Source: Cenarchaeum symbiosum A
GTDB lineage: Archaea; Thermoproteota; Nitrososphaeria; Nitrososphaerales; Nitrosopumilaceae
Length of the DNA stretch: 64,000 bases
NCBI GenBank assembly: GCA_000200715.1
Contig: DP000238.1
Span: 1,204,593-1,268,592, forward strand
Direction: 5' to 3'
Below are positions 12,821-52,920 of the stretch, one piece after another. A program made the position numbers and the translations under genes. The stretch's first letter is position 1; each line of letters opens with the position of its first letter. The notes under the pieces were generated by a model. It saw nothing but the letters and a program-made list of their open reading frames with translations, was not told the origin of the DNA and ran no database searches.

Positions 12821-12939
12821 AGGCTGATAGAGCTTCTATGTATATGAAAACTTACCAACTTTACAGGGAATTGGAAGATAAATCAAGGGTTGTTGAATAA
12901 GTCGACTAGGAGGCAGCATAGTATAATCTCCTTTGTACA

Positions 12940-13202
12940 TTATGCGTACATAGCCACCAACCGGTTGTAAAGCGACACCCTGATCAGGATTTCCCGCATG
13001 ATGCTCCCTGCCTTCCTGGCCTGCACGGACTCGCCGAATATCTTTTTGGACCCCTCAAACACCATCTCCACGGATGTCCAGCAGTCGTATCCAATATCCT
13101 TGTTCCACTCGTCGTACCGGCCCACCTAGGCCTTGACCACGAGCTGCCCGGCACGGCAGCCCGTGCCCAACCTCGAGTTTATCCTGATCGTGGAGATGAA
13201 CA
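12940..13202 (-). pseudogene. Transposase C-terminal fragment A (IS5/IS4-type)
   Basis: The minus-strand frame reads ISTIRINSRLGTGCRAGQ, a stop codon (TAG), then GRYDEWNKDIGYDCWTSVEM, EGSKKIFGESVQARKAGS and a natural end LYNRLVAMYA. This resembles the end of DDE transposases of the IS5/IS4 group, where a YGxR-xxxE-xxFSxxKRxFG segment carries the last catalytic Glu. The N-terminal two-thirds is absent and there is an internal stop, so it is a remnant. This copy keeps the most natural C-terminus. Confidence 0.75.
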
Positions 13203-13288
13203 TGTGTAACTGCAGTCACGGAAACCTTCAGTTTCTGGACAGCTATCTTGGGTCTAGCTTAAACATACGCAACGTATTGGCAGAATTA

Positions 13289-13429
13289 CTAGATTTCTAT
13301 GGTCATGCTTTCTTCTGTCACTCTATCGAACACGGCACGTATAATGTGTGTGCGCTTTTCATCTACAAGACTTGAGCAGGTTATTACTTTTGATTCCCCG
13401 CACCGCATAGTAACGTCTTGTATGTCCAT
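13289..13429 (-). CDS. Small ORF of the tandem-array family, copy 1, 46 aa
   Basis: Starts MDIQDVTMRCGESKVITCSS and ends VTEESMTIEI. The ATG at 13429 has GTTTTTATAC (13451-13460) about 26 bases upstream on the minus strand, good archaeal TATA spacing for leaderless transcription. No signal peptide, membrane segment or known domain; two cysteines, mixed charge. It is not part of the neighbouring transposase frame. The copy at 13865 is identical. Confidence 0.6.
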   Translation of the reverse strand: MDIQDVTMRCGESKVITCSSLVDEKRTHIIRAVFDRVTEESMTIEI

Positions 13430-13450
13430 TATGAATTAAGACATCTACGC

Positions 13451-13460
13451 GTATAAAAAC
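13451..13460 (-). promoter_or_regulatory. TATA box of the 46-aa ORF, repeated in every unit
   Basis: GTTTTTATAC on the minus strand, centred 26 bases before the ORF start. The same box is at 14027-14036 and 14603-14612 before copies 2 and 3. Confidence 0.5.
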
Positions 13461-13515
13461 ATAGTATTGTTACCGGGGCGGGGCTACCCCAGGGTAGCAT
13501 CATCCCCCTTGTACA

Positions 13516-13778
13516 TCATGTGAGCATGGCCACAAACCGGCTGCAGGCCAACACCTCGATCAAGATCTACCGAATGATGTCCCCTCCCTTCCTGGCCTGC
13601 ACGGCATCGCCGAATATCTTTTTGAACCCCGCAAACACCATCTCCACGGATGTCCTGCGGCCGTATCCAATATCCTTGTTCCACTCGTCGTACCGGCCCA
13701 CCTAGGCCTTGACCACGAGCTGCCCGGCACGGCAGCCCGTGCCCAACCTCGAGTTTATCCTGATCGTGGAGATGAACA
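13516..13778 (-). pseudogene. Transposase C-terminal fragment B
   Basis: Same segment as fragment A, shifted by 576 bases. Internal stops interrupt the frame (TAG after VVKA and TAG after DIIR). It contains GYGRRTSVEMVFAGFKKIFG, the part around the third acidic catalytic residue, and ends VLACSRFVAMLT. Non-functional. Confidence 0.75.
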
Positions 13779-13864
13779 TGTGTAACTGCAGTCACGGAAA
13801 CCTTCAGTTTCTGGACAGCTATCTTGGGTCTAGCTTAAACATACGCAACGTATTGGCAGAATTA

Positions 13865-14005
13865 CTAGATTTCTATGGTCATGCTTTCTTCTGTCACTCT
13901 ATCGAACACGGCACGTATAATGTGTGTGCGCTTTTCATCTACAAGACTTGAGCAGGTTATTACTTTTGATTCCCCGCACCGCATAGTAACGTCTTGTATG
14001 TCCAT
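13865..14005 (-). CDS. Small ORF of the tandem-array family, copy 2, 46 aa
   Basis: Base-for-base repeat of the copy at 13289-13429, with the same upstream TATA box at 14027-14036. The identity suggests a very recent duplication of the whole 576-base unit. Confidence 0.6.
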   Translation of the reverse strand: MDIQDVTMRCGESKVITCSSLVDEKRTHIIRAVFDRVTEESMTIEI

Positions 14006-14091
14006 TATGAATTAAGACATCTACGCGTATAAAAACATAGTATTGTTACCGGGGCGGGGCTACCCCAGGGTAGCATCATCCCCCTTGTACA

Positions 14092-14354
14092 TCATGTGAG
14101 CATGGCCACAAACCGGCTGCAGGCCAACACCTCGATCAAGATCTACCGAATGATGTCCCCTCCCTTCCTGGCCTGCACGGCATCGCCGAATATCTTTTTG
14201 AACCCCGCAAACACCATCTCCACGGATGTCCTGCGGCCGTATCCAATATCCTTGTCCCACTCGTCGTACTGGCCCACTTGGGCCTTGACCACGAACTGCC
14301 CGGCACGGCAGCCCGTGCCCAACCTCGAGTTTATCCTGATCGTGGAGATGAACA
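14092..14354 (-). pseudogene. Transposase C-terminal fragment C
   Basis: Third copy of the fragment. Here the first internal stop is absent (VVKAQVGQYDEWDKDIGYG reads through), but the TAG after DIIR remains, so the last 20 codons are cut off. No N-terminal catalytic Asp region is present. Confidence 0.75.
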
Positions 14355-14440
14355 TGTGGAACTGCAGGCACGGAAACCTTCAGTTTCTGGACAGCTATCT
14401 TGGGTCTAGCTTAAACATACGCAACGTATTGGCAGAATTA

Positions 14441-14581
14441 CTAGATTTCTATGGTCATGCTTTCTTCTGTCACTCTATCGAACATAAAACGTATAATATG
14501 TGAACGCTTTTCATCTACAAGACTTGTGGAGGTTATTACTTTTGATTCCCCGCACCGTAGAGTAACGTCTTGCATGTCCAT
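14441..14581 (-). CDS. Small ORF of the tandem-array family, variant copy 3, 46 aa
   Basis: Same length and frame as copies 1 and 2 but with conservative changes: I3M, M8L, C18S, S19T, T27S, A32F, V33M. No stop or frameshift has appeared although most of the changes alter the protein, while the linked transposase fragments have stops. TATA box at 14603-14612. This pattern suggests that the ORF is kept while the transposase decays. Confidence 0.6.
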   Translation of the reverse strand: MDMQDVTLRCGESKVITSTSLVDEKRSHIIRFMFDRVTEESMTIEI

Positions 14582-14667
14582 AAGGGATTAAGACATCTAC
14601 GCGTATAAAAACATAGTATTGTTACCGGGGCGGGGTTACCCCAGGGTAGCATCATCCCCCTTGTACA

Positions 14668-14795
14668 TCATGTGAGCATGGCCACAAACCGGCTGCAGGC
14701 CAACACCTCGATCAAGATCTCCCGAATGATGTCCCCTCCCTTCCTGGCCTGCACGGCCTCGCCGAATATCTTTTTGAACCCCGCAAACACCGTCC
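14668..14795 (-). pseudogene. Transposase C-terminal fragment D, truncated
   Basis: Only the last 42 or so codons remain (VFAGFKKIFGEAVQARKGGD, REILIEVLACSRFVAMLT). This copy has GAG where B and C have the TAG after DIIR, so its end is intact. At about 14795 homology stops and unrelated sequence begins, so this is the edge of the array. An open frame (14636-14920) crosses the junction but is chance fusion. Confidence 0.65.
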
Positions 14796-30083: not shown

Positions 30084-30434
30084 TTAGGGGCCGTCCCGCC
30101 CGGCCCTGCCCTTCATCTTGTCTATTGTATCGACTAGCATGTTTATCGACCGGAGTATCTCCTGCTGTTTGGCATGGTCTGATTCTTCTGCGAGCTCGCT
30201 TCCAAGCGATCGGAGCTTCTCCTCGAGGATGCCGACTGGCATCCCCCCTCTATCATTCTGCGGATCGGCCGAGGGTGCATGCGGTACATCACCTGAAGGC
30301 TCCCGGCCGCAGCCCACGCAGAGGGCATACCCGTCGCGCATCACCCTGACTCCCTTGCAGTAGGGGCACGGCTCGCTTGCAAGCGTTGCTCCCTTTAGGA
30401 GCATCTCGACTGCCTTTTTGGTGGGCTCTGGCAT
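30084..30434 (-). CDS. UPF0148 (Sjogren/scleroderma autoantigen 1 type) zinc protein, 116 aa
   Basis: N-terminal domain matches UPF0148: KKAVEMLLKGATLASEPCPYC, then GYALCVGCGRE, forming a zinc ribbon with CxxC pairs. The second half is helical (about 60-110, ILEEKLRSLGSELAEESDHA). The start is ATG at 30434; a T-rich box GTTTTTTACC lies about 26 bases upstream, and the longer open frame reaches into the transposon end. Function unknown. It lies next to the second ParB-like gene on the same strand. Confidence 0.8.
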   Translation of the reverse strand: MPEPTKKAVEMLLKGATLASEPCPYCKGVRVMRDGYALCVGCGREPSGDVPHAPSADPQNDRGGMPVGILEEKLRSLGSELAEESDHAKQQEILRSINMLVDTIDKMKGRAGRDGP

Positions 30435-30538: not shown

Positions 30539-30546
30539 CGGCTAGA
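30539..30546. repeat. Target-site duplication of cargo unit 1, left
   Basis: CGGCTAGA, identical to 32391-32398, directly outside the inverted terminal sequences. Confidence 0.85.
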
Positions 30547-30645
30547 GGCTCTGTCCAATATGGGTGCCATGGTGACATGAGAATCTTCTCCCAAATTCTC
30601 TGACCGCCCCATGCCTGTACTGCAGTCCCTTGTCCAAATCAGGCG
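30547..30645 (+). repeat. Terminal inverted repeat, unit 1 left
   Basis: Begins GGCTCTGTCCAATATGGGTG and continues GCCATGGTGACATGAGAATC. It lacks about 20 internal bases found in the other three copies (GATCAAGG...). Its inverted partner is at 32283-32390; the first 26 bases match at 25 positions. Confidence 0.85.
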
Positions 30646-30781
30646 TGCCTTCGACCAGGTCTTGGAGGGTTGCATGCACCACATGGGCCATGTGGCCGGG
30701 ATTGAACTTAAACAGGCGGAAAATCCAATCCTTGACAATTACCGGCAGACGATGGGTCCAAGGTGTATGTTATGCAGCCCC

Positions 30782-31228
30782 CTACGGGGCGCCGTCATCG
30801 GGGACTACATAGGAGAAGCAGTCCGTTCTTACACCGTCCTCACTGAACAATTGTCCATTACCCGGAACAAAACAGTTGTGCTCAAAGCTCGAGGGCTCCC
30901 GGTCGTAATACCTGATGAACAGCACCGCCCCCCTGTCGTCGTCTCTAGCCGTATAGCTGAACGAGACGCGGAATTTAGTCCTGTCCAGGAAGATTATCTC
31001 GTGCCCCTCGTACATGGCATGGAACGCCTCCACCTCCGGCAGTGTCCTAATCTCATCCATGTGGTCCTCTACGGCGCCATGATAGGTGCTGTTTTCAAAC
31101 GGCCACAACAAACGCTTGTCGTAGTCGTATTTGAACGCCCCCAAGCCCCCCACGACCGTCAATATTATGAGTGCAACCACTATGAGGCGGTTGGCGGCCG
31201 TGTTACCAGTTATGCGTGGCAGATGCAT
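30782..31228 (-). CDS. Membrane-anchored exported protein of unit 1, 148 aa
   Basis: A single hydrophobic segment near the N-terminus (about 13-32, NRLIVVALIILTVVGGLGAF) is followed by a polar outside domain of about 115 residues with two cysteines (EHNCFVPGNG and RTDCFSYVV), which could form a disulfide. Sequon NSTY suggests exposure to the outside. The ATG overlaps the stop of the upstream gene in TAATG, so the two are coupled. No family recognised. Confidence 0.65.
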   Translation of the reverse strand: MHLPRITGNTAANRLIVVALIILTVVGGLGAFKYDYDKRLLWPFENSTYHGAVEDHMDEIRTLPEVEAFHAMYEGHEIIFLDRTKFRVSFSYTARDDDRGAVLFIRYYDREPSSFEHNCFVPGNGQLFSEDGVRTDCFSYVVPDDGAP

Positions 31229-31983
31229 TACCAGTATACGGGATCATCGTGCTCTACTACATGCCATTCGATAACGTAAAATGTCCACCACCACGCAGGG
31301 TGAATATAAACAAGAAACTCGGGGTTTGGCTCTTTAATCTGCTCTTCCAAAACCCATCCCTCTTCCTCGCCGTTTATGACTATCTGGTCCCGGAACGAAT
31401 CGTCGGTGCAGTTGTATTCGTTGGTAAATCTGGCGGTATCAACAATATCGACATTCAGATAATGTAATGACGCGTAGGCAGCCACCTCGTGATATCCCTG
31501 GCCGGTAACAAAGGCCACGGCCTCTTGCTTCGTGTCATATCTGCCTACCACTTTTCTTACATACTCGGGATGGTGATTGTCAAACGAGCCTCCGCAGACA
31601 TCCGTCCATGCAAATGCCGGAGGCAGCATCCAATATGCGCCGGCTTGCAGGTCTTTGTCCCGTATCTGATCTCCAAGCTTGGAGAATCTGTCCCTCAAAC
31701 CCTCGTCAGGTACGGGCTTTGCGTCGGGATTCTCACGGGCCTGCTGTACAAGGTCGTTCTGCAACAGTACAAAGTCCTCCATGATCCTGACCTGCCTTTC
31801 GGTCATGGCCCCCTTTGCGGCATCGGCATCAAAGTAGATTATGAGCTTCTCGTCCTGGGTAACGTACGGATCCGCCTTTGTAAACGCATCCTTGATCTCG
31901 CTTGGCTCGTATTTTATTCCCGTATCGTCAATGGCTGCGCTGGCAAGCATCGGGGTTGCCGCGGCTGCCACTACCAGAATCAA
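31228..31983 (-). CDS. Secreted protein of unit 1, 251 aa
   Basis: Starts with a short signal peptide, MILVVAAAATPMLASA, with a likely cut before AIDD. The mature part is acidic, helical in the middle (about 60-105, TERQVRIMEDFVLLQNDLVQ), with three cysteines later. A WWWTFYVIEW segment lies near the end. No family recognised. It is the first gene of the unit 1 operon. A role at the cell surface, perhaps towards the host or neighbours, is only inference from export and mobility. Confidence 0.7.
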   Translation of the reverse strand: MILVVAAAATPMLASAAIDDTGIKYEPSEIKDAFTKADPYVTQDEKLIIYFDADAAKGAMTERQVRIMEDFVLLQNDLVQQARENPDAKPVPDEGLRDRFSKLGDQIRDKDLQAGAYWMLPPAFAWTDVCGGSFDNHHPEYVRKVVGRYDTKQEAVAFVTGQGYHEVAAYASLHYLNVDIVDTARFTNEYNCTDDSFRDQIVINGEEEGWVLEEQIKEPNPEFLVYIHPAWWWTFYVIEWHVVEHDDPVYW

Positions 31984-32005
31984 CTAAAAGGCACCGTGCA
32001 TCAGG

Positions 32006-32278
32006 TCACACACACCTACATCGCATATAAAGAATCGCCGGATACTCTTGCCGGTGTTTACATTGCGCTAGGAATTGCTGACGCCGCGGGGTTTCCCGCT
32101 GAATCCCGCTACAATTCACCTCTGGATAGTCAGGCTTGCAGCAGAGGGTGTTTGATGTTGGTCCGCTCATGTGTGCCACCCTGGCATACACCAATGCCAT
32201 CATCTGACTGGCCACCGACTTTTCATACCCCCACACCTCCCGTAACAGCTCTTCAAACGTGGATGTCCGTTTGGGCAC
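32006..32278 (-). CDS. Possible small protein of unit 1, 90 aa
   Basis: GTG-start frame; the first 40 residues look protein-like (TSTFEELLREVWGYEKSVAS, then MMALVYARVAHM), while the rest is cysteine- and arginine-rich and less convincing. The start overlaps the inner edge of the right terminal repeat. It may be a remnant of a once longer gene. There is no clear promoter. Confidence 0.3.
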   Translation of the reverse strand: MPKRTSTFEELLREVWGYEKSVASQMMALVYARVAHMSGPTSNTLCCKPDYPEVNCSGIQRETPRRQQFLAQCKHRQEYPAILYMRCRCV

Positions 32279-32282
32279 CCGG

Positions 32283-32390
32283 CTCAGGCAGGGGCTATAC
32301 AGTACAGGTCAATTCAAAAATTTGGGAGAAGATTCTCATCTCACTTGACTGCCCATCCCTTGATCCATGGCACCTATATTGGACAGAGCC
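32283..32390 (-). repeat. Terminal inverted repeat, unit 1 right
   Basis: Read on the minus strand from 32390: GGCTCTGTCCAATATAGGTG, then GCCATGGATCAAGGGATGGG, then AGTCAAGTGAGATGAGAATC, TTCTCCC and a tail CCTGTACTGTATAGCCCC that is also present at unit 2 right. Confidence 0.85.
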
Positions 32391-32398
32391 CGGCTAGA
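32391..32398. repeat. Target-site duplication of cargo unit 1, right
   Basis: CGGCTAGA, identical to 30539-30546. Confidence 0.85.
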
Positions 32399-32439: not shown

Positions 32440-32748
32440 ATGGCGGTAATTTGTAACACGTGTGGACTGCCGGAGGACCTGTGTGCCTGCGGAGACCTGG
32501 CAAAAGACAGCACAAAGATAATCATCCGGCTCGAGACGCGCCGATTCAAAAAGAAGGGGACCATGATAGAAGGTCTGGACCCCAAGCTCAACAACCTGGA
32601 GAACGTGGCAAAGGAGCTCAAGAACAAGTACGCCTGCGGCGGGACCGCCAAGGAGGGCTATGTATTCCTGCAGGGCGATCACAGGGACACCATAAAGGAC
32701 ACGCTCGTCGGCCTCGGCTTTCCAGAGTCCAGCATAGAGCTGCACTAG
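32440..32748 (+). CDS. Translation initiation factor aIF1 (SUI1), 102 aa
   Basis: SUI1/eIF1 fold: KIIIRLETRRFKKKGTMIEGL, then LKNKYACGGTAKEGYVFLQG and the final DHRDTIKDTLVGLGF. It binds the small ribosomal subunit and helps select the start codon. The N-terminus has a CNTCGLPEDLCAC knuckle, as in archaeal homologues. ATG at 32440 with CTTAATAAC at 32404-32412 upstream. The CAAX-protease gene begins 1 base after its stop. Confidence 0.95.
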   Translation: MAVICNTCGLPEDLCACGDLAKDSTKIIIRLETRRFKKKGTMIEGLDPKLNNLENVAKELKNKYACGGTAKEGYVFLQGDHRDTIKDTLVGLGFPESSIELH

Positions 32749-48132: not shown

Positions 48133-48140
48133 AGATTTAA
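48133..48140. repeat. Target-site duplication of cargo unit 2, left
   Basis: AGATTTAA, identical to 52913-52920, directly outside the inverted terminal sequences. Confidence 0.85.
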
Positions 48141-48235
48141 GACTCTGTCCAGTATGGGTGCCACGGATCAGAGTGGGCAGCCAAATGACATGAGAATCCT
48201 CGCCCAAATCTTTTGAACCGCTCCCATTGCGCCTT
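48141..48235 (+). repeat. Terminal inverted repeat, unit 2 left
   Basis: Begins GACTCTGTCCAGTATGGGTG, continues GCCACGGATCAGAGTGGGCA and CAAATGACATGAGAATCCTC. The first 26 bases match the right end of unit 2 at about 21 positions, the most diverged of the four ends. Confidence 0.85.
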
Positions 48236-48443
48236 GATTTCATGCCTTGCCATCCATACAGGGGCGCACTCTGAAATGGTCCAGGCGGCGGGTCAACGCG
48301 GGCAAAAATAGGATGTCCGTTTCGCGCAACGGCACGGTCACGGCTCCCGTATCTCAAACGAGCCCATCATCCACGGAAAGATCGTACAATGGTACCCATA
48401 GTGTCCCGCGTCAAGCCCACTGGTATCAAGGGTGGACCCACCG
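48236..48443. other. Unassigned interior of unit 2, left side
   Basis: Between the left terminal repeat and the serpin stop. Frames crossing it lack homology. I see no RNA or promoter. Confidence 0.4.
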
Positions 48444-49709
48444 TCAGGGCTCCGACACCCTACCCATGAAGAGGATGGTTCCGCTCTCATCGTCCTGTAT
48501 GAGGAATAGAAACGGGCGGTCCGCGACGAACCTGTTGGACATGATCCCGGACTCTACTACCCCATCGATGCGTGTGACGGCGGCCGCCTCAGCCCCCTCC
48601 TCGTTTACATCTACAAACGCGACATGTACGGCATCTGACACGAAGGCAAACAATGTAATGCCATTAAGGGCACCCTCCTTGAATATGTGGTTCACGCCAA
48701 GGTTAAGCAGGTGCTCTTTCAGGTCGTATCTTGTAGATGCGGTAAACTTTGGCAGCAATACGTCCACGTCCCTCTCACTCAATCCACCAGTCCACTCGCG
48801 CATCTGTCCTGCCGACAGTGACTCCTCCAGCTCCCTCATGCCTCCGGGTTCCGGCAGCAACACCACCATGGACAGCCGGTCTCCCTCGTACGGCATCCTG
48901 AGCACCTGCAGCCCGTCATATTCTGCATAACTGAACCGGTCCTTGGCATACATGTATTCCGCCGACCCGCCGGAGGGCCCGTGCCATTCATTCTCCTGTG
49001 TATACTCCGGAGCAAACGGCTTTACCCATGCCCCCTTGAAATATATCGCGTTTGTAATCACAAGTACTGTGTATGGATTCAATTCGTCTATTACTTCCGG
49101 TATCTTTTCGTTGGTTGCATCCGACACCCACCCGTTTATTCTATCTATCGGGTCCTCCCCCGGGTTCTCTATGGTGGCAAGGTATGTACTGCGGCCGACG
49201 TCAAGGTATCCCGGCGATATCTCACCTACAAAGGGCCACAGCGCGTTTGCCATTACCAGTTCGGCGTGCGGGTTGTCGCGGTTTATAGACGCCATCACAT
49301 GCGCCGTCATGTTATGGCGCGCCCGCGCGTCGGGCTCAAAGCCGAAGGCATCCTCTAGTTCTTTGGCCCCCTCGCCACCGGCCCCCTCGTATAGCATCGA
49401 GAACGCGGCGTACATGCCAAGCGGTGAAAAGAAGATGTTTCCCTCCTCTCCGGAGACCTGCCTGTAAAAGTCGGCGGCAAAGCCGTTGTTTGAATCGGCT
49501 ATCTCCTGCGGGATGACAGCGGACTCTATCTCCGAGGCGCTGACCACGGGTAGGCCAGCAAGGTCAGTAGGTCCTGTCCCGGCGAGCTCCGAAGTGCCCA
49601 TCTCTACGGGCTCCGGGGTGTCCCGTGTGTCGGATGCCGGCAGTACCACGTATCCAACTGCTGCGGCCACCACTGCCGCGGCTGCAGCCGCAAGGTACGC
49701 CTTCCTCAA
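48444..49709 (-). CDS. Membrane-anchored serpin, 421 aa
   Basis: Serine-protease inhibitor. After a signal or anchor (about 4-24) and a linker comes the whole serpin fold: NIFFSPLGMYAAFSMLYEGA (helix B), LVMANALWP, VITNAIYFKGAW (s3A), MPYEGDRLSMVVLLP, HVAFVDVNEEGAEAAAVT (reactive-loop hinge at about 369) and RPFLFLIQDDESGTILFMG. The hinge EEGAEAAAVT matches inhibitory serpins. By spacing P1 lies near the VVES segment, possibly Glu, which is uncertain. TTG at 49709 fits a TATA box CAATTTAG; GTG at 49727 is the alternative. Confidence 0.93.
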   Translation of the reverse strand: MRKAYLAAAAAAVVAAAVGYVVLPASDTRDTPEPVEMGTSELAGTGPTDLAGLPVVSASEIESAVIPQEIADSNNGFAADFYRQVSGEEGNIFFSPLGMYAAFSMLYEGAGGEGAKELEDAFGFEPDARARHNMTAHVMASINRDNPHAELVMANALWPFVGEISPGYLDVGRSTYLATIENPGEDPIDRINGWVSDATNEKIPEVIDELNPYTVLVITNAIYFKGAWVKPFAPEYTQENEWHGPSGGSAEYMYAKDRFSYAEYDGLQVLRMPYEGDRLSMVVLLPEPGGMRELEESLSAGQMREWTGGLSERDVDVLLPKFTASTRYDLKEHLLNLGVNHIFKEGALNGITLFAFVSDAVHVAFVDVNEEGAEAAAVTRIDGVVESGIMSNRFVADRPFLFLIQDDESGTILFMGRVSEP

Positions 49710-50149
49710 CGGACGACCACCCGGCACGCTAAATTGTGCTGGTGATGGTGTGTGGAAACTGCAAGCGGTACAAAGATGGACATGGTGACAATTATCTGCA
49801 CGTCCATTGGAGGCGATCTTCGCTGGACGTATATAAAAGACATGCCCAAGGTGTAGGCGGATATACAGGTTCAGGTGTGGAAAAAATCACCGAGATGTGT
49901 GGTTATCGGGTGTGGCTTTCGGATGGACCAATGCGCACAGTAGGCATTCTGGTTGTATAAGCAGAATCCATGATATGTGGGCCCGCCTTGGCAGCTCTTG
50001 TGCATTCAAACTTGGTTTTCAGGGAGCATTCGGATATGGCAGGAATCCTAGACATATGACCACTGACCATCTAAAGGCAATTAATTCATGTTCAAAATTG
50101 TTGTCAGTCATCGTCCATTGAGTGTGGCGGGATATGCGTTCTGATACTT
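49710..50149. other. Gap between serpin and protease genes
   Basis: About 440 bases. A plus-strand frame at 49736 begins VCGNCKRYKDGHGDNY but has no further protein-like character. TATATAAAAG near 49829-49838 looks like a TATA box pointing to no clear gene. The right half is A+T-rich. No RNA recognised. Confidence 0.4.
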
Positions 50150-52711
50150 TTACTCCGGACGTACTAGATTCAGTCCATCTTCTACATTCTCCCAAGCGCT
50201 GAACATCTTATAATGATAATACTCGCTAATGTTGTTACACAAACTAAGATCCGTGCGGACATCAATCAGCGATGGGACCTCGAAGTTAGAATCAAACACA
50301 CAGGTTGACCCCCAGTGTACGCCTACTATGCTTGCTGCGTCTCCCTCATGATGGACTATGGCAGATCCGCTGTCTCCCCCCTGACTCGGATATATTCCTA
50401 TTCCCATGTTACGCAATGTACCACTGAAGCTAAGATGTGTGGCATTCTTGTACATAAGAATACCGGGCCCGTTGTTGTACCAGCCGTAGATCGTAATTTC
50501 CTCCAGGCGTTCTACGTCTGCCAGCCTCCCCCAAGCCACCTCGGTTACCGTTCCGTTGTGCGCCCTCACCTTGCTGCCCACGGTAATATCTGATACCGTT
50601 ATGGGTATAAAAGCAGCATCAATATTCCCACCATTGCGTAGTGTCCCGTGCTTATTCGACAGGTATTTTATTGTCCCATCCTCTCTGCTTTCTATGTTAT
50701 GGACAAAGAAAGTTTTTCCATAACGTTCCTCAATGCTGTGTGCCGCAACGACGACGCCATGATGAGACTGGTTGTAGGCCCCGGTGGCTATCGTGCCGGG
50801 ATAATTCTCAAGCTCCCCTGTACTGTTCCTCAACCTAGCAATATGTCTGTCCCCCCCAAAGAACTCAACCGCATCGCCGCCAAGCTGCGGGAAAGACCCA
50901 TCTGGTAAGTGACATGACTCCGCCATGGAGTCCGTAGCCTCGCACTGGTCAGGGCACCCGTCGCCGGAGCTCCCGGCCTGATTGGGGCACGAGTCTGACG
51001 CATCGGCAACGCCGTCGCCGTCAGAGTCTTGCGATGGCATGTACCCATCGCGGAGAGTCCCCGTGATCCTAACGTTATCGACTGCCACCTCCTCCGAGCT
51101 GGTCGACGGGTCGGCCGAGAACCGCAGTGAAAAGCCCGACCTGAGATAGTCTCCCAAGTGATACCCCTCCGAGTGCCACATGTCATCTGCCGAGCCGTTG
51201 TTCTCGCTCCACTCGAATATTGTAGTCCACGATGAGCCGCTGTACAGCTCTACCTTCAGGTACTCGTCATCGTCGAGCGACCTGTCGACGAACCTGTCAA
51301 AGTGCAGCGCGGCTGATGTGTACGGGGAGAGGTCCAATGAACTGGCAAGCTCCATCGTGCAGTCCGGGCAGGAGCCCTCCGCCTCCGCCACCAGGTTGTC
51401 GTCGGGCCAGCCTTCGAGATACCGCAGATACTCATCTGATACCTTGTTCTCCCAGTCGCCATCGACGGTCCAGGCCGAGAGGCCGCCCTCAAAGTCATCC
51501 GAGAATATTACAGTCCCCTCCGGCCGCACGGACGTGTCATGGAGCGTCCCGTTGATCCTGATATTGTCCACGCCGACGTCCTCTGAGCTGCTTGACGGGT
51601 CGGCCGAGAATCGCAGTGAAAAGTCAGACCCGAGATAGTCCGCCAGATCATAGCTCTCCGGATGCCACACGTCATCAGCCGAGCCCTCGTCCTCGCTCCA
51701 CTCGAAAATGGTGGCCCACGATGCGCCGTCGGAGAGCTCCACTTTCAGGTACTCGTCATCGTCCATAGCATCGTCCACAAACCTGTCAAAGCTCAGCGTG
51801 GCGGACTTGTATAAGGAGAGGTCCAAGGCGCTGGCAAGCTCCATTGTACAGTCCGAACAGCGGCCGTCCGCTTCTGCCACCAGGTTGTCGTCGGGCCAGT
51901 CCGCGGGGTACCGCTGCAGCTCATCTGATACCTTGCTCTCCCAGTTGCCCTCGACGGTCCAGGCCGAGAGGCCGCCCTCAAAGTCGTCCGAGAATATGAC
52001 GTCATCCGAGGATGCCGGAGGCGGTGTAAAGACGACGGGCGCCGTGTCGGGGCATCCGTCGGTGTCCTGGTACTGGTTTACTGTCTCGGCTGTGTATATG
52101 CACTGGTCCACGCTGTTGGGTATGCCGTCGTTGTCAAAGTCCAGGGTTGCCGGATCAAGCATGACCGGCACCTCATATCCATAATCGTTGATTATAGTCG
52201 TGTATGTAGTGCACCGGCTGGTCGTCCTCTCGGGAAGGCATCTCGTGATATACCTGCCCCAATAGTAGCAGAGATGGTCCTCCCCGTCTGGCGGGCACGG
52301 CGTGGCCTCGCGCGACAAGGCATCGGGTATGACTATCCCAAAGATTATCTCCACGGGTATTATAACGCCGGCATCCTCCTGTATGTCCGATATCGTGGGA
52401 GGGTCATAGGACTGCGCGGGGTCCAGCCAGACCACCAGCGTCTCGTTGTCATAGTCCACGTATACCATCTCGTAGAATATCTTCTCGTCCGCGTATCCGG
52501 TATTGGCTATGGCGGATGAGGTATCCTCCATGATGGTGGTTATGGCGCTGTGGCCCCTCTCGAGCTCGTTGACTATGCCTACGGGTCCCACAGTCTGGTC
52601 GTCGGGGATTATGTCCAGTTTATCCGCGGGGGCGCCTACGCCGGTATCCTGCTGCGCCAGGGCCATTCCCGCAGGTATCAGCAGTGCGATCAGGAGTATG
52701 GCATGTTTCAT
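50150..52711 (-). CDS. Secreted trypsin-like protease with thrombospondin-3 and duplicated beta-sandwich domains, 853 aa
   Basis: Signal peptide MKHAILLIALLIPAGMALAQ. A propeptide-like region (about 20-190) follows, then a calcium-type thrombospondin-3 motif (DFDNDGIPNSVDQC, about 195), two copies of a roughly 150-residue sandwich domain (about 238-388 and 402-550, each starting FSDDFEGGLSAWTV), a second thrombospondin-3 motif (DSDGDGVADASDSC) and a C-terminal chymotrypsin-fold domain. The triad is visible: VVVAAHSIE (about H658), NIDAAFIPI (about D698) and GGDSGSAIV (about S781). Probably an exported serine endopeptidase; its cut site is unknown. Confidence 0.88.
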   Translation of the reverse strand: MKHAILLIALLIPAGMALAQQDTGVGAPADKLDIIPDDQTVGPVGIVNELERGHSAITTIMEDTSSAIANTGYADEKIFYEMVYVDYDNETLVVWLDPAQSYDPPTISDIQEDAGVIIPVEIIFGIVIPDALSREATPCPPDGEDHLCYYWGRYITRCLPERTTSRCTTYTTIINDYGYEVPVMLDPATLDFDNDGIPNSVDQCIYTAETVNQYQDTDGCPDTAPVVFTPPPASSDDVIFSDDFEGGLSAWTVEGNWESKVSDELQRYPADWPDDNLVAEADGRCSDCTMELASALDLSLYKSATLSFDRFVDDAMDDDEYLKVELSDGASWATIFEWSEDEGSADDVWHPESYDLADYLGSDFSLRFSADPSSSSEDVGVDNIRINGTLHDTSVRPEGTVIFSDDFEGGLSAWTVDGDWENKVSDEYLRYLEGWPDDNLVAEAEGSCPDCTMELASSLDLSPYTSAALHFDRFVDRSLDDDEYLKVELYSGSSWTTIFEWSENNGSADDMWHSEGYHLGDYLRSGFSLRFSADPSTSSEEVAVDNVRITGTLRDGYMPSQDSDGDGVADASDSCPNQAGSSGDGCPDQCEATDSMAESCHLPDGSFPQLGGDAVEFFGGDRHIARLRNSTGELENYPGTIATGAYNQSHHGVVVAAHSIEERYGKTFFVHNIESREDGTIKYLSNKHGTLRNGGNIDAAFIPITVSDITVGSKVRAHNGTVTEVAWGRLADVERLEEITIYGWYNNGPGILMYKNATHLSFSGTLRNMGIGIYPSQGGDSGSAIVHHEGDAASIVGVHWGSTCVFDSNFEVPSLIDVRTDLSLCNNISEYYHYKMFSAWENVEDGLNLVRPE

Positions 52712-52814
52712 TGTACGCGCGGGCCGGGTTGTGATACGATGTAACTGTGGCGTGCCGGTGCTTGTGAGTGTTTACACTGCGCGTGGATTTGGCTGAAGGC
52801 AGCGTGCCCCGTTT

Positions 52815-52912
52815 GGACAGGGGGTTATACGGCACAGGGCGATCCGGAATTTGGAAGATTCCCATGTCATTTGCCCACTCTTTGATCCACGGCACCTATA
52901 TTGGACAGAGCC
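52815..52912 (-). repeat. Terminal inverted repeat, unit 2 right
   Basis: Read on the minus strand from 52912: GGCTCTGTCCAATATAGGTG, then GCCGTGGATCAAAGAGTGGG, AAATGACATGGGAATCTTC and a tail CCTGTGCCGTATAACCCC, shared with unit 1 right. On the plus strand it holds TATATT at 52897-52902. Confidence 0.85.
52897..52902 (+). promoter_or_regulatory. TATA-like box of map supplied by the transposon end
   Basis: TATATT, centred 25-26 bases before ATG 52925, lies inside the right terminal repeat. Confidence 0.5.
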
Positions 52913-52920
52913 AGATTTAA
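52913..52920. repeat. Target-site duplication of cargo unit 2, right
   Basis: AGATTTAA, identical to 48133-48140; it ends 5 bases before the map start. Confidence 0.85.

Follow-up and report, generated by a model that had tools for sequence, protein, structure and literature searches.

Two bracketed gene pairs in the window

The DNA analyzed in this study, referred to as the window, is a stretch of 64,000 bp corresponding to G000:C1:1204593-1268592 of the complete 2,045,086-bp genome of Cenarchaeum symbiosum A. Between the genes for a UPF0148 protein and aIF1, it carries a segment (unit 1, 30547-32390) with inverted ends and an 8-bp direct repeat on either side.

30084-30434, minus strand: UPF0148 (Auto_anti-p27), left neighbour of unit 1 (PF06677, E = 6.7e-11)
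30539-30546, unstranded: left target duplication of unit 1, CGGCTAGA, 8 bp, identical to 32391-32398
30547-30600, plus strand: left terminal repeat of unit 1, tip and inner block (profile R1 match, 6.1e-11)
30782-31228, minus strand: cargo ORF of 148 aa with an N-terminal membrane anchor (ORF list)
31228-31983, minus strand: cargo ORF of 251 aa with a hydrophobic leader (ORF list)
32315-32390, minus strand: right terminal repeat of unit 1 (profile R1 match, 3.5e-20)
32391-32398, unstranded: right target duplication of unit 1, CGGCTAGA, 8 bp, identical to 30539-30546
32440-32748, plus strand: aIF1/SUI1, right neighbour of unit 1 (PF01253, E = 9.4e-20)

The tips of unit 1 are equal at 25 of 26 bases (30547-30572 versus 32365-32390), as are the inner blocks (25 of 26; 30572-30597 versus 32319-32344), and the left end is without about 22 bp between these two blocks. 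The two cargo ORFs overlap by one base. A second segment (unit 2, 48141-52912) is organized in the same manner.

48133-48140, unstranded: left target duplication of unit 2, AGATTTAA, exact 8-bp copy at 52913-52920
48141-48214, plus strand: left terminal repeat of unit 2 (end alignment and profile)
48444-49727, minus strand: exported serpin of 427 aa with the inhibitory-type hinge NEEGAEAAA (PF00079, E = 2.9e-94)
50150-52711, minus strand: exported protein of 853 aa with two MAM-like domains, a thrombospondin type 3 repeat and a C-terminal trypsin-like domain (domain reading)
52845-52912, minus strand: right terminal repeat of unit 2 (end alignment and profile)
52913-52920, unstranded: right target duplication of unit 2, AGATTTAA, exact 8-bp copy at 48133-48140

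The preliminary description of this DNA had proposed that the two units share their inverted ends while differing in duplication and in exported cargo, and these observations are borne out by the coordinates above. When the four ends are aligned base by base they match over about 72 bp, far past the first 15 bases. A de novo screen for an exact 8-bp direct repeat around an inverted repeat of at least 12/16, with 30 shuffled windows as the control, ranked unit 1 first in the window (15/16), above everything in the shuffled windows, which gave 0-3 matches each with a maximum of 13/16. Unit 2 ranked second (13/16); this ties with the best shuffled score at 16 bases, and its ends match further inward (29 of 40 bases). 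The units form a family, as had been suggested; a chance repeat was rejected on the basis of the shuffled windows and of three exact duplications.

It had also been proposed that the UPF0148-aIF1 junction be compared in relatives. The two genes are divergent and adjacent in 16 relatives, with a gap of roughly 80-190 bp as estimated from match coordinates. The gap in the window is 2005 bp, and subtraction of unit 1 and one duplication leaves 153 bp. The unit 1 genes are absent from this junction in every relative examined, the 16 with an intact, empty junction.

A separate feature of the window is a set of four tandem copies of a 576-bp repeat (12914-14794), which are 80-89% alike to the first copy.

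Transposase-free units across the genome and their cargo

An end profile was built from ten ends, four in the window and six elsewhere in the genome. The whole-genome search with this profile returned ten strong ends and one relic, which together make up four two-ended units, two one-ended units and the relic. The two insertions originally described are thus both real, and their number was an undercount, as the genome contains at least six units of 1.8-4.8 kb.

Unit 1 (u1), two-ended, CGGCTAGA on either side: proteins of 148 and 251 aa
Unit 2 (u2), two-ended, AGATTTAA on either side: serpin and 853-aa protein
u3, 466585-469412, two-ended, ATCCAGAA on either side: 228-aa protein and serpin
u4, 1809313-1811751, two-ended, degenerate duplication: 399-aa protein with two putative cupredoxin-like copies (our own reading of the sequence rather than a database match)
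u5, right end only, at 1610189: 136-aa protein and serpin
u6, right end only, at 1272068: several exported fragments

Exact 8-bp duplications are therefore present at three of the four two-ended units. The left ends of u5 and u6 were looked for and not found. The relic end at G000:C1:1158544 (L086) adjoins a tRNA-like stretch.

The units, referred to below as cassettes, have GGCTCTGTCCAATAT ends. All ten ends can be aligned along about 72 bp; column identity averages 81%, and two blocks are conserved, namely a tip, GGCTCTGTCCAATATGGGTGCCATGG, and an inner block, ATGACATGAGAATCTTC(TCC)CAAAT. In most ends the tip is GGCTCTGTCC, which contains a GG tip and a CTGT motif. No transposase gene was found inside the units, either in the ORF lists or in Pfam and NCBIfam searches. 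There was no clear signal of homogenization between the two ends of a unit (within units 0.75-0.93; between units, mean 0.79), and no copy with identical cargo at two sites was found that would indicate recent movement. The exact 26-base end pattern had no match in the genome and viral collections. Among 249 other genomes of the family of this archaeon, which served as the comparison set, no convincing cassette ends were found; weak matches in three of them (G013, G036 and G133) have no paired end and look like chance, and a genome of the same genus (G005) has neither a serpin nor cassette ends. Within 1.5-kb flanks, the serpin loci of relatives showed no convincing unit with an inverted repeat and a duplication.

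The genome encodes five serpins, three of them inside units that have transposon ends and a fourth in a seemingly decayed copy; the serpins at 1682310 and 1939734 are without cassette ends. Five serpins have been published for C. symbiosum, and serpins are expanded in sponge symbionts, where they have been suggested to shield the symbiont from sponge proteases or to regulate its own secreted proteases (PMC6790972, PMC7848895). The serpins found here are predicted to be of the inhibitory type from their PF00079 domain and from the hinge EEG[TA]EAAA that precedes the reactive loop. Purifying selection acts on the serpin cores (omega 0.23-0.35), and pN is 0.40-0.73 in the reactive loop versus 0.13-0.39 in the core, the loop values being derived from 9-16 codons each. 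The cassette copies are old, because the serpins of the units differ by dS values of 0.58-1.06.

The trypsin-like domain of the 853-aa protein of unit 2 was assigned from its catalytic motifs (AAH, D and GDSGS), since matches to PDB sequences were found only at E values of 0.4 or worse. The 148-aa protein of unit 1 has no Pfam or NCBIfam match; its AlphaFold model is of moderate confidence (pLDDT 74), and comparison of this model with PDB folds gave nothing below E = 0.07. Five more copies of its family are present in the genome, and those at 417k, 550k and 1395k are without cassette ends. For the 251-aa protein, the structure model was unusable (pLDDT 34.5). Homologues occur in ten of the 249 other genomes, and in two of these ten the contig also carries a serpin at a distance of no more than about 1 kb from the homologue. 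This gene may be leader-damaged in unit 1, because an in-frame TAG is located immediately 5' of the TTG start and the hydrophobic leader starts directly after it. In the region 31228-31998 of the window, the TAG sits within what appears to be the original leader of the gene, and a homologue at L209 has a full signal peptide.

The leader MRRAYLAAA is found on serpins and also on the u4 protein. In addition, u3, u4 and u5 have DNA segments of 82-310 bp with a mutual similarity of 89-96%, the remainder being different. Judged from these similarities, leaders and domains are distributed mosaically among the units. Taken as a whole, the cargo is a secretome kit (serpins, a trypsin-like protease, cupredoxins and anchored proteins), which plausibly operates where the symbiont meets its sponge host.

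A mosaic of this kind, together with the cargo genes found without cassette ends, is also what might be seen if the terminal repeats served recombination or regulation and surrounded a gene family spread by duplication. However, the three exact and mutually different 8-bp direct repeats lie precisely outside the ends, and the gene junction in relatives is intact and empty. Since repeat recombination yields neither duplications nor an empty junction, this origin is strongly disfavoured and we regard it as highly improbable.

A 17.9-kb element with IS6-like transposases

Two divergent IS6-like (DDE_Tnp_IS240) transposases are encoded in the genome, and both are located within a transposon of 17,926 bp at G000:C1:1522471-1540396 (L112/L111). 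This element is flanked on both sides by TACGCTGA, and its ends, GGCTCTGCACAACGGTGATGAGAAAATCTCCCAATCC, are identical over at least the first 40 bases (40 of 40). The transposases score 48.1 and 36.9 bits against PF13610 and match the NCBIfam IS6 model at 4.4e-26 and 8.8e-9; at 91.9 and 35.4 bits, both stay far under the 125-bit cut-off of the curated IS6 equivalog (NCBIfam). Transposase A (445 aa) contains a zinc-binding stretch; transposase B is 525 aa long. The cargo of the element comprises a type IIG-like restriction-methyltransferase, an HKD+SNF2 defence-type helicase and several related exported proteins.

A tip GGCTCTG and an inner CTCCCAA are common to the cassettes, to the ends of the 17.9-kb element, to an end at 1540405 and to ends at 1478504 and 1481276. 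The pattern GGCTCTG-N15..45-CTCCCAA has six matches in the genome, all of which are ends of this superfamily (the two ends of the 17.9-kb element, 1540405, 1478504, 1481276 and the left end of unit 1), and the reversed control has none. The similarity of the inner block between the element and the cassette end reaches p = 0.0005-0.002, and that of the full end only p = 0.03. The tips differ (GGCTCTGTCC in the cassettes versus GGCTCTGCAC in the element), and the cassette ends are about 25 bp longer. In the family, 8-bp duplications also accompany IS6-like relatives, whose tips include GGTTCTGTCAAGTT/GGTACTGTCAAGTT, as exemplified by GGTTCTGTCAAGTT (G007), GGTGCTGTACAG (G212) and ACTTCTGTGCAG (G202); no shuffled locus reached 13/16.

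Two further arrangements of ends were observed. The end at 1540405 abuts the 17.9-kb element, such that outward-facing ends are exactly 8 bp apart (1540396-1540405, L111), and outward-facing ends likewise abut in a relative (L207; 705-714 and 3748-3757), with exactly 8 bp between them; these pairs give the impression that new copies insert right next to existing ends. In addition, an array at G000:C1:1478504-1484214 (L100) contains trypsin-like, cupredoxin-like and unit 1-type genes and two ends that point the same way and belong to a shorter subfamily, GGCTCTGGTC...TTCTCCCAATT; along 1 kb it shares 92% identity with the unit at 1272068.

Unit 1 most probably belongs to a family of transposon cassettes that are non-autonomous and moved in trans by an IS6-like transposase. 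An IS6-like driver is favoured because the two IS6-like transposases lie in an element that shares an end pattern with the cassettes, and because the IS6-like relatives in the family likewise generate 8-bp duplications and resemble the cassettes in their tips. According to this mechanism, an IS6-like DDE transposase made elsewhere in the genome, either by the 17.9-kb element or by a lost relative of its enzymes, would act in trans on the cassettes; it would bind the inner block, cut at the GG tip and insert the cassette with an 8-bp stagger, giving the 8-bp target duplication, and the cassette would carry genes for secreted proteins in place of the enzyme. The evidence thus points to a kind of element and a driver that the preliminary description had left unnamed, namely cargo cassettes that are non-autonomous and belong to an IS6-like transposon family.

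The units may instead derive from larger autonomous transposons by internal rearrangement or decay; they would then have been moved by an enzyme of their own, encoded beside the cargo and later lost. The 17.9-kb element does pair transposases with genes for exported proteins, some of which are related to the gene beside the serpin copy at 1682310, and some units have lost one end. However, the four two-ended units are compact and differ in cargo, with no transposase remnant among the listed ORFs, and three of them have exact duplications, which is consistent with insertion in their present two-ended form, unless each lost the gene afterwards; a remnant origin is therefore considered unlikely.

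Several transposon families make 8-bp duplications, and tips of the GG type also occur outside IS6. The cassettes might accordingly be moved by another 8-bp family (ISL3, IS1595, IS256, IS66 or an unknown one), with the likeness to IS6 tips being convergence. Against this, only IS6-like transposases were found in a genome search that covered ISL3 among the four named families, and the two-block end pattern is common to the cassettes and the transposase-bearing 17.9-kb element. We judge a driver of this kind to be improbable, and ISL3 was rejected as there is no ISL3 transposase in the genome.

Relation to known elements and significance

The closest known kind of element to these non-autonomous cassettes is the mobile insertion cassette (MIC). 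Such cassettes were first described in Bacillus and are exemplified by MIC231 of Bacillus cereus and the qnrD and qnrS2 mic elements; they are transposase-free, with two inverted repeats, a target duplication and one or more passenger genes, and are presumed to be mobilized in trans (PMC3913671). Similarly, the four units found here are bracketed by two inverted repeats, have a target duplication (exact 8 bp at three units and degenerate at the fourth) and carry passenger genes with no transposase gene inside. MICs are presumed to be mobilized in trans by the transposase of an insertion sequence with the same ends; here the ends on the transposase-bearing 17.9-kb element are related, with tips that are not identical. 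MIC231 needs the IS231 transposase, whereas the presumed driver of the cassettes is IS6-like. The two-block ends of about 72 bp, the 8-bp duplication, the archaeal host and the serpin and exported cargo also set the cassettes apart. What is new with respect to known mobile insertion cassettes is the serpin/secretome cargo, the long two-block end and the archaeal host.

Members of the IS6 family are characterized by direct repeats of 8 bp, by tips beginning with GG and by a cTGT motif, with a zinc finger in the long members, and a review of the family names only one member with a passenger gene, ISDsp3 (PMC7986276). The cassettes resemble IS6/IS26 elements (including tIS and IS6 MITEs) in their 8-bp duplications, GG tip and CTGT motif, and the zinc-binding stretch of transposase A in the 17.9-kb element is reminiscent of the zinc finger of the long members. 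However, the cassettes encode no IS6-type DDE transposase, the two IS6-like enzymes being elsewhere in the genome, and they are 1.8-4.8 kb with ends of about 72 bp, whereas IS6/IS26 elements are mostly about 800 bp (about 700-890 bp) with terminal repeats of 14-20 bp.

Thaumarchaeota are known to harbour insertions that have inverted ends and target duplications, such as casposons and IS-like transposons. A survey of thaumarchaeal mobile elements reported no IS-like transposons in C. symbiosum A, and its main text is silent on serpins; the cassettes and the 17.9-kb element fit none of the classes of integrated element described in its accessible part (PMC6563490). The serpins reported from sponge symbionts are the same proteins as the cassette cargo, and the accessible text of those reports describes no mobile carrier (PMC6790972, PMC7848895). 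No archaeal serpin-carrying cassette was found in the open-licence literature, and an earlier notice elsewhere is possible.

Tentatively, and with more doubt than confidence, the transposon ends may be viewed as a gene-cassette system for a host-facing secretome, in which an IS6-like transposase acting in trans would keep copying and scattering the cassettes, domains of the cargo would be exchanged among cassettes with common leaders and ends, and the reactive loops of the serpins would diversify from copy to copy. The outcome would be a set of protease inhibitors that is both mobile and shuffled.

Secreted proteins, serpins included, are among the foremost candidates for the means by which archaea living in sponges deal with their host, and the reason why some symbionts have many serpins and their relatives none is not clear. 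Serpins carried in transposon cassettes provide a concrete, testable route for the gain, multiplication and reshuffling of genes for life with a host. The view of the C. symbiosum A genome as free of IS-like transposons is corrected, and the range of mobile insertion cassettes is widened to include an archaeon and genes with a likely role in host interaction.
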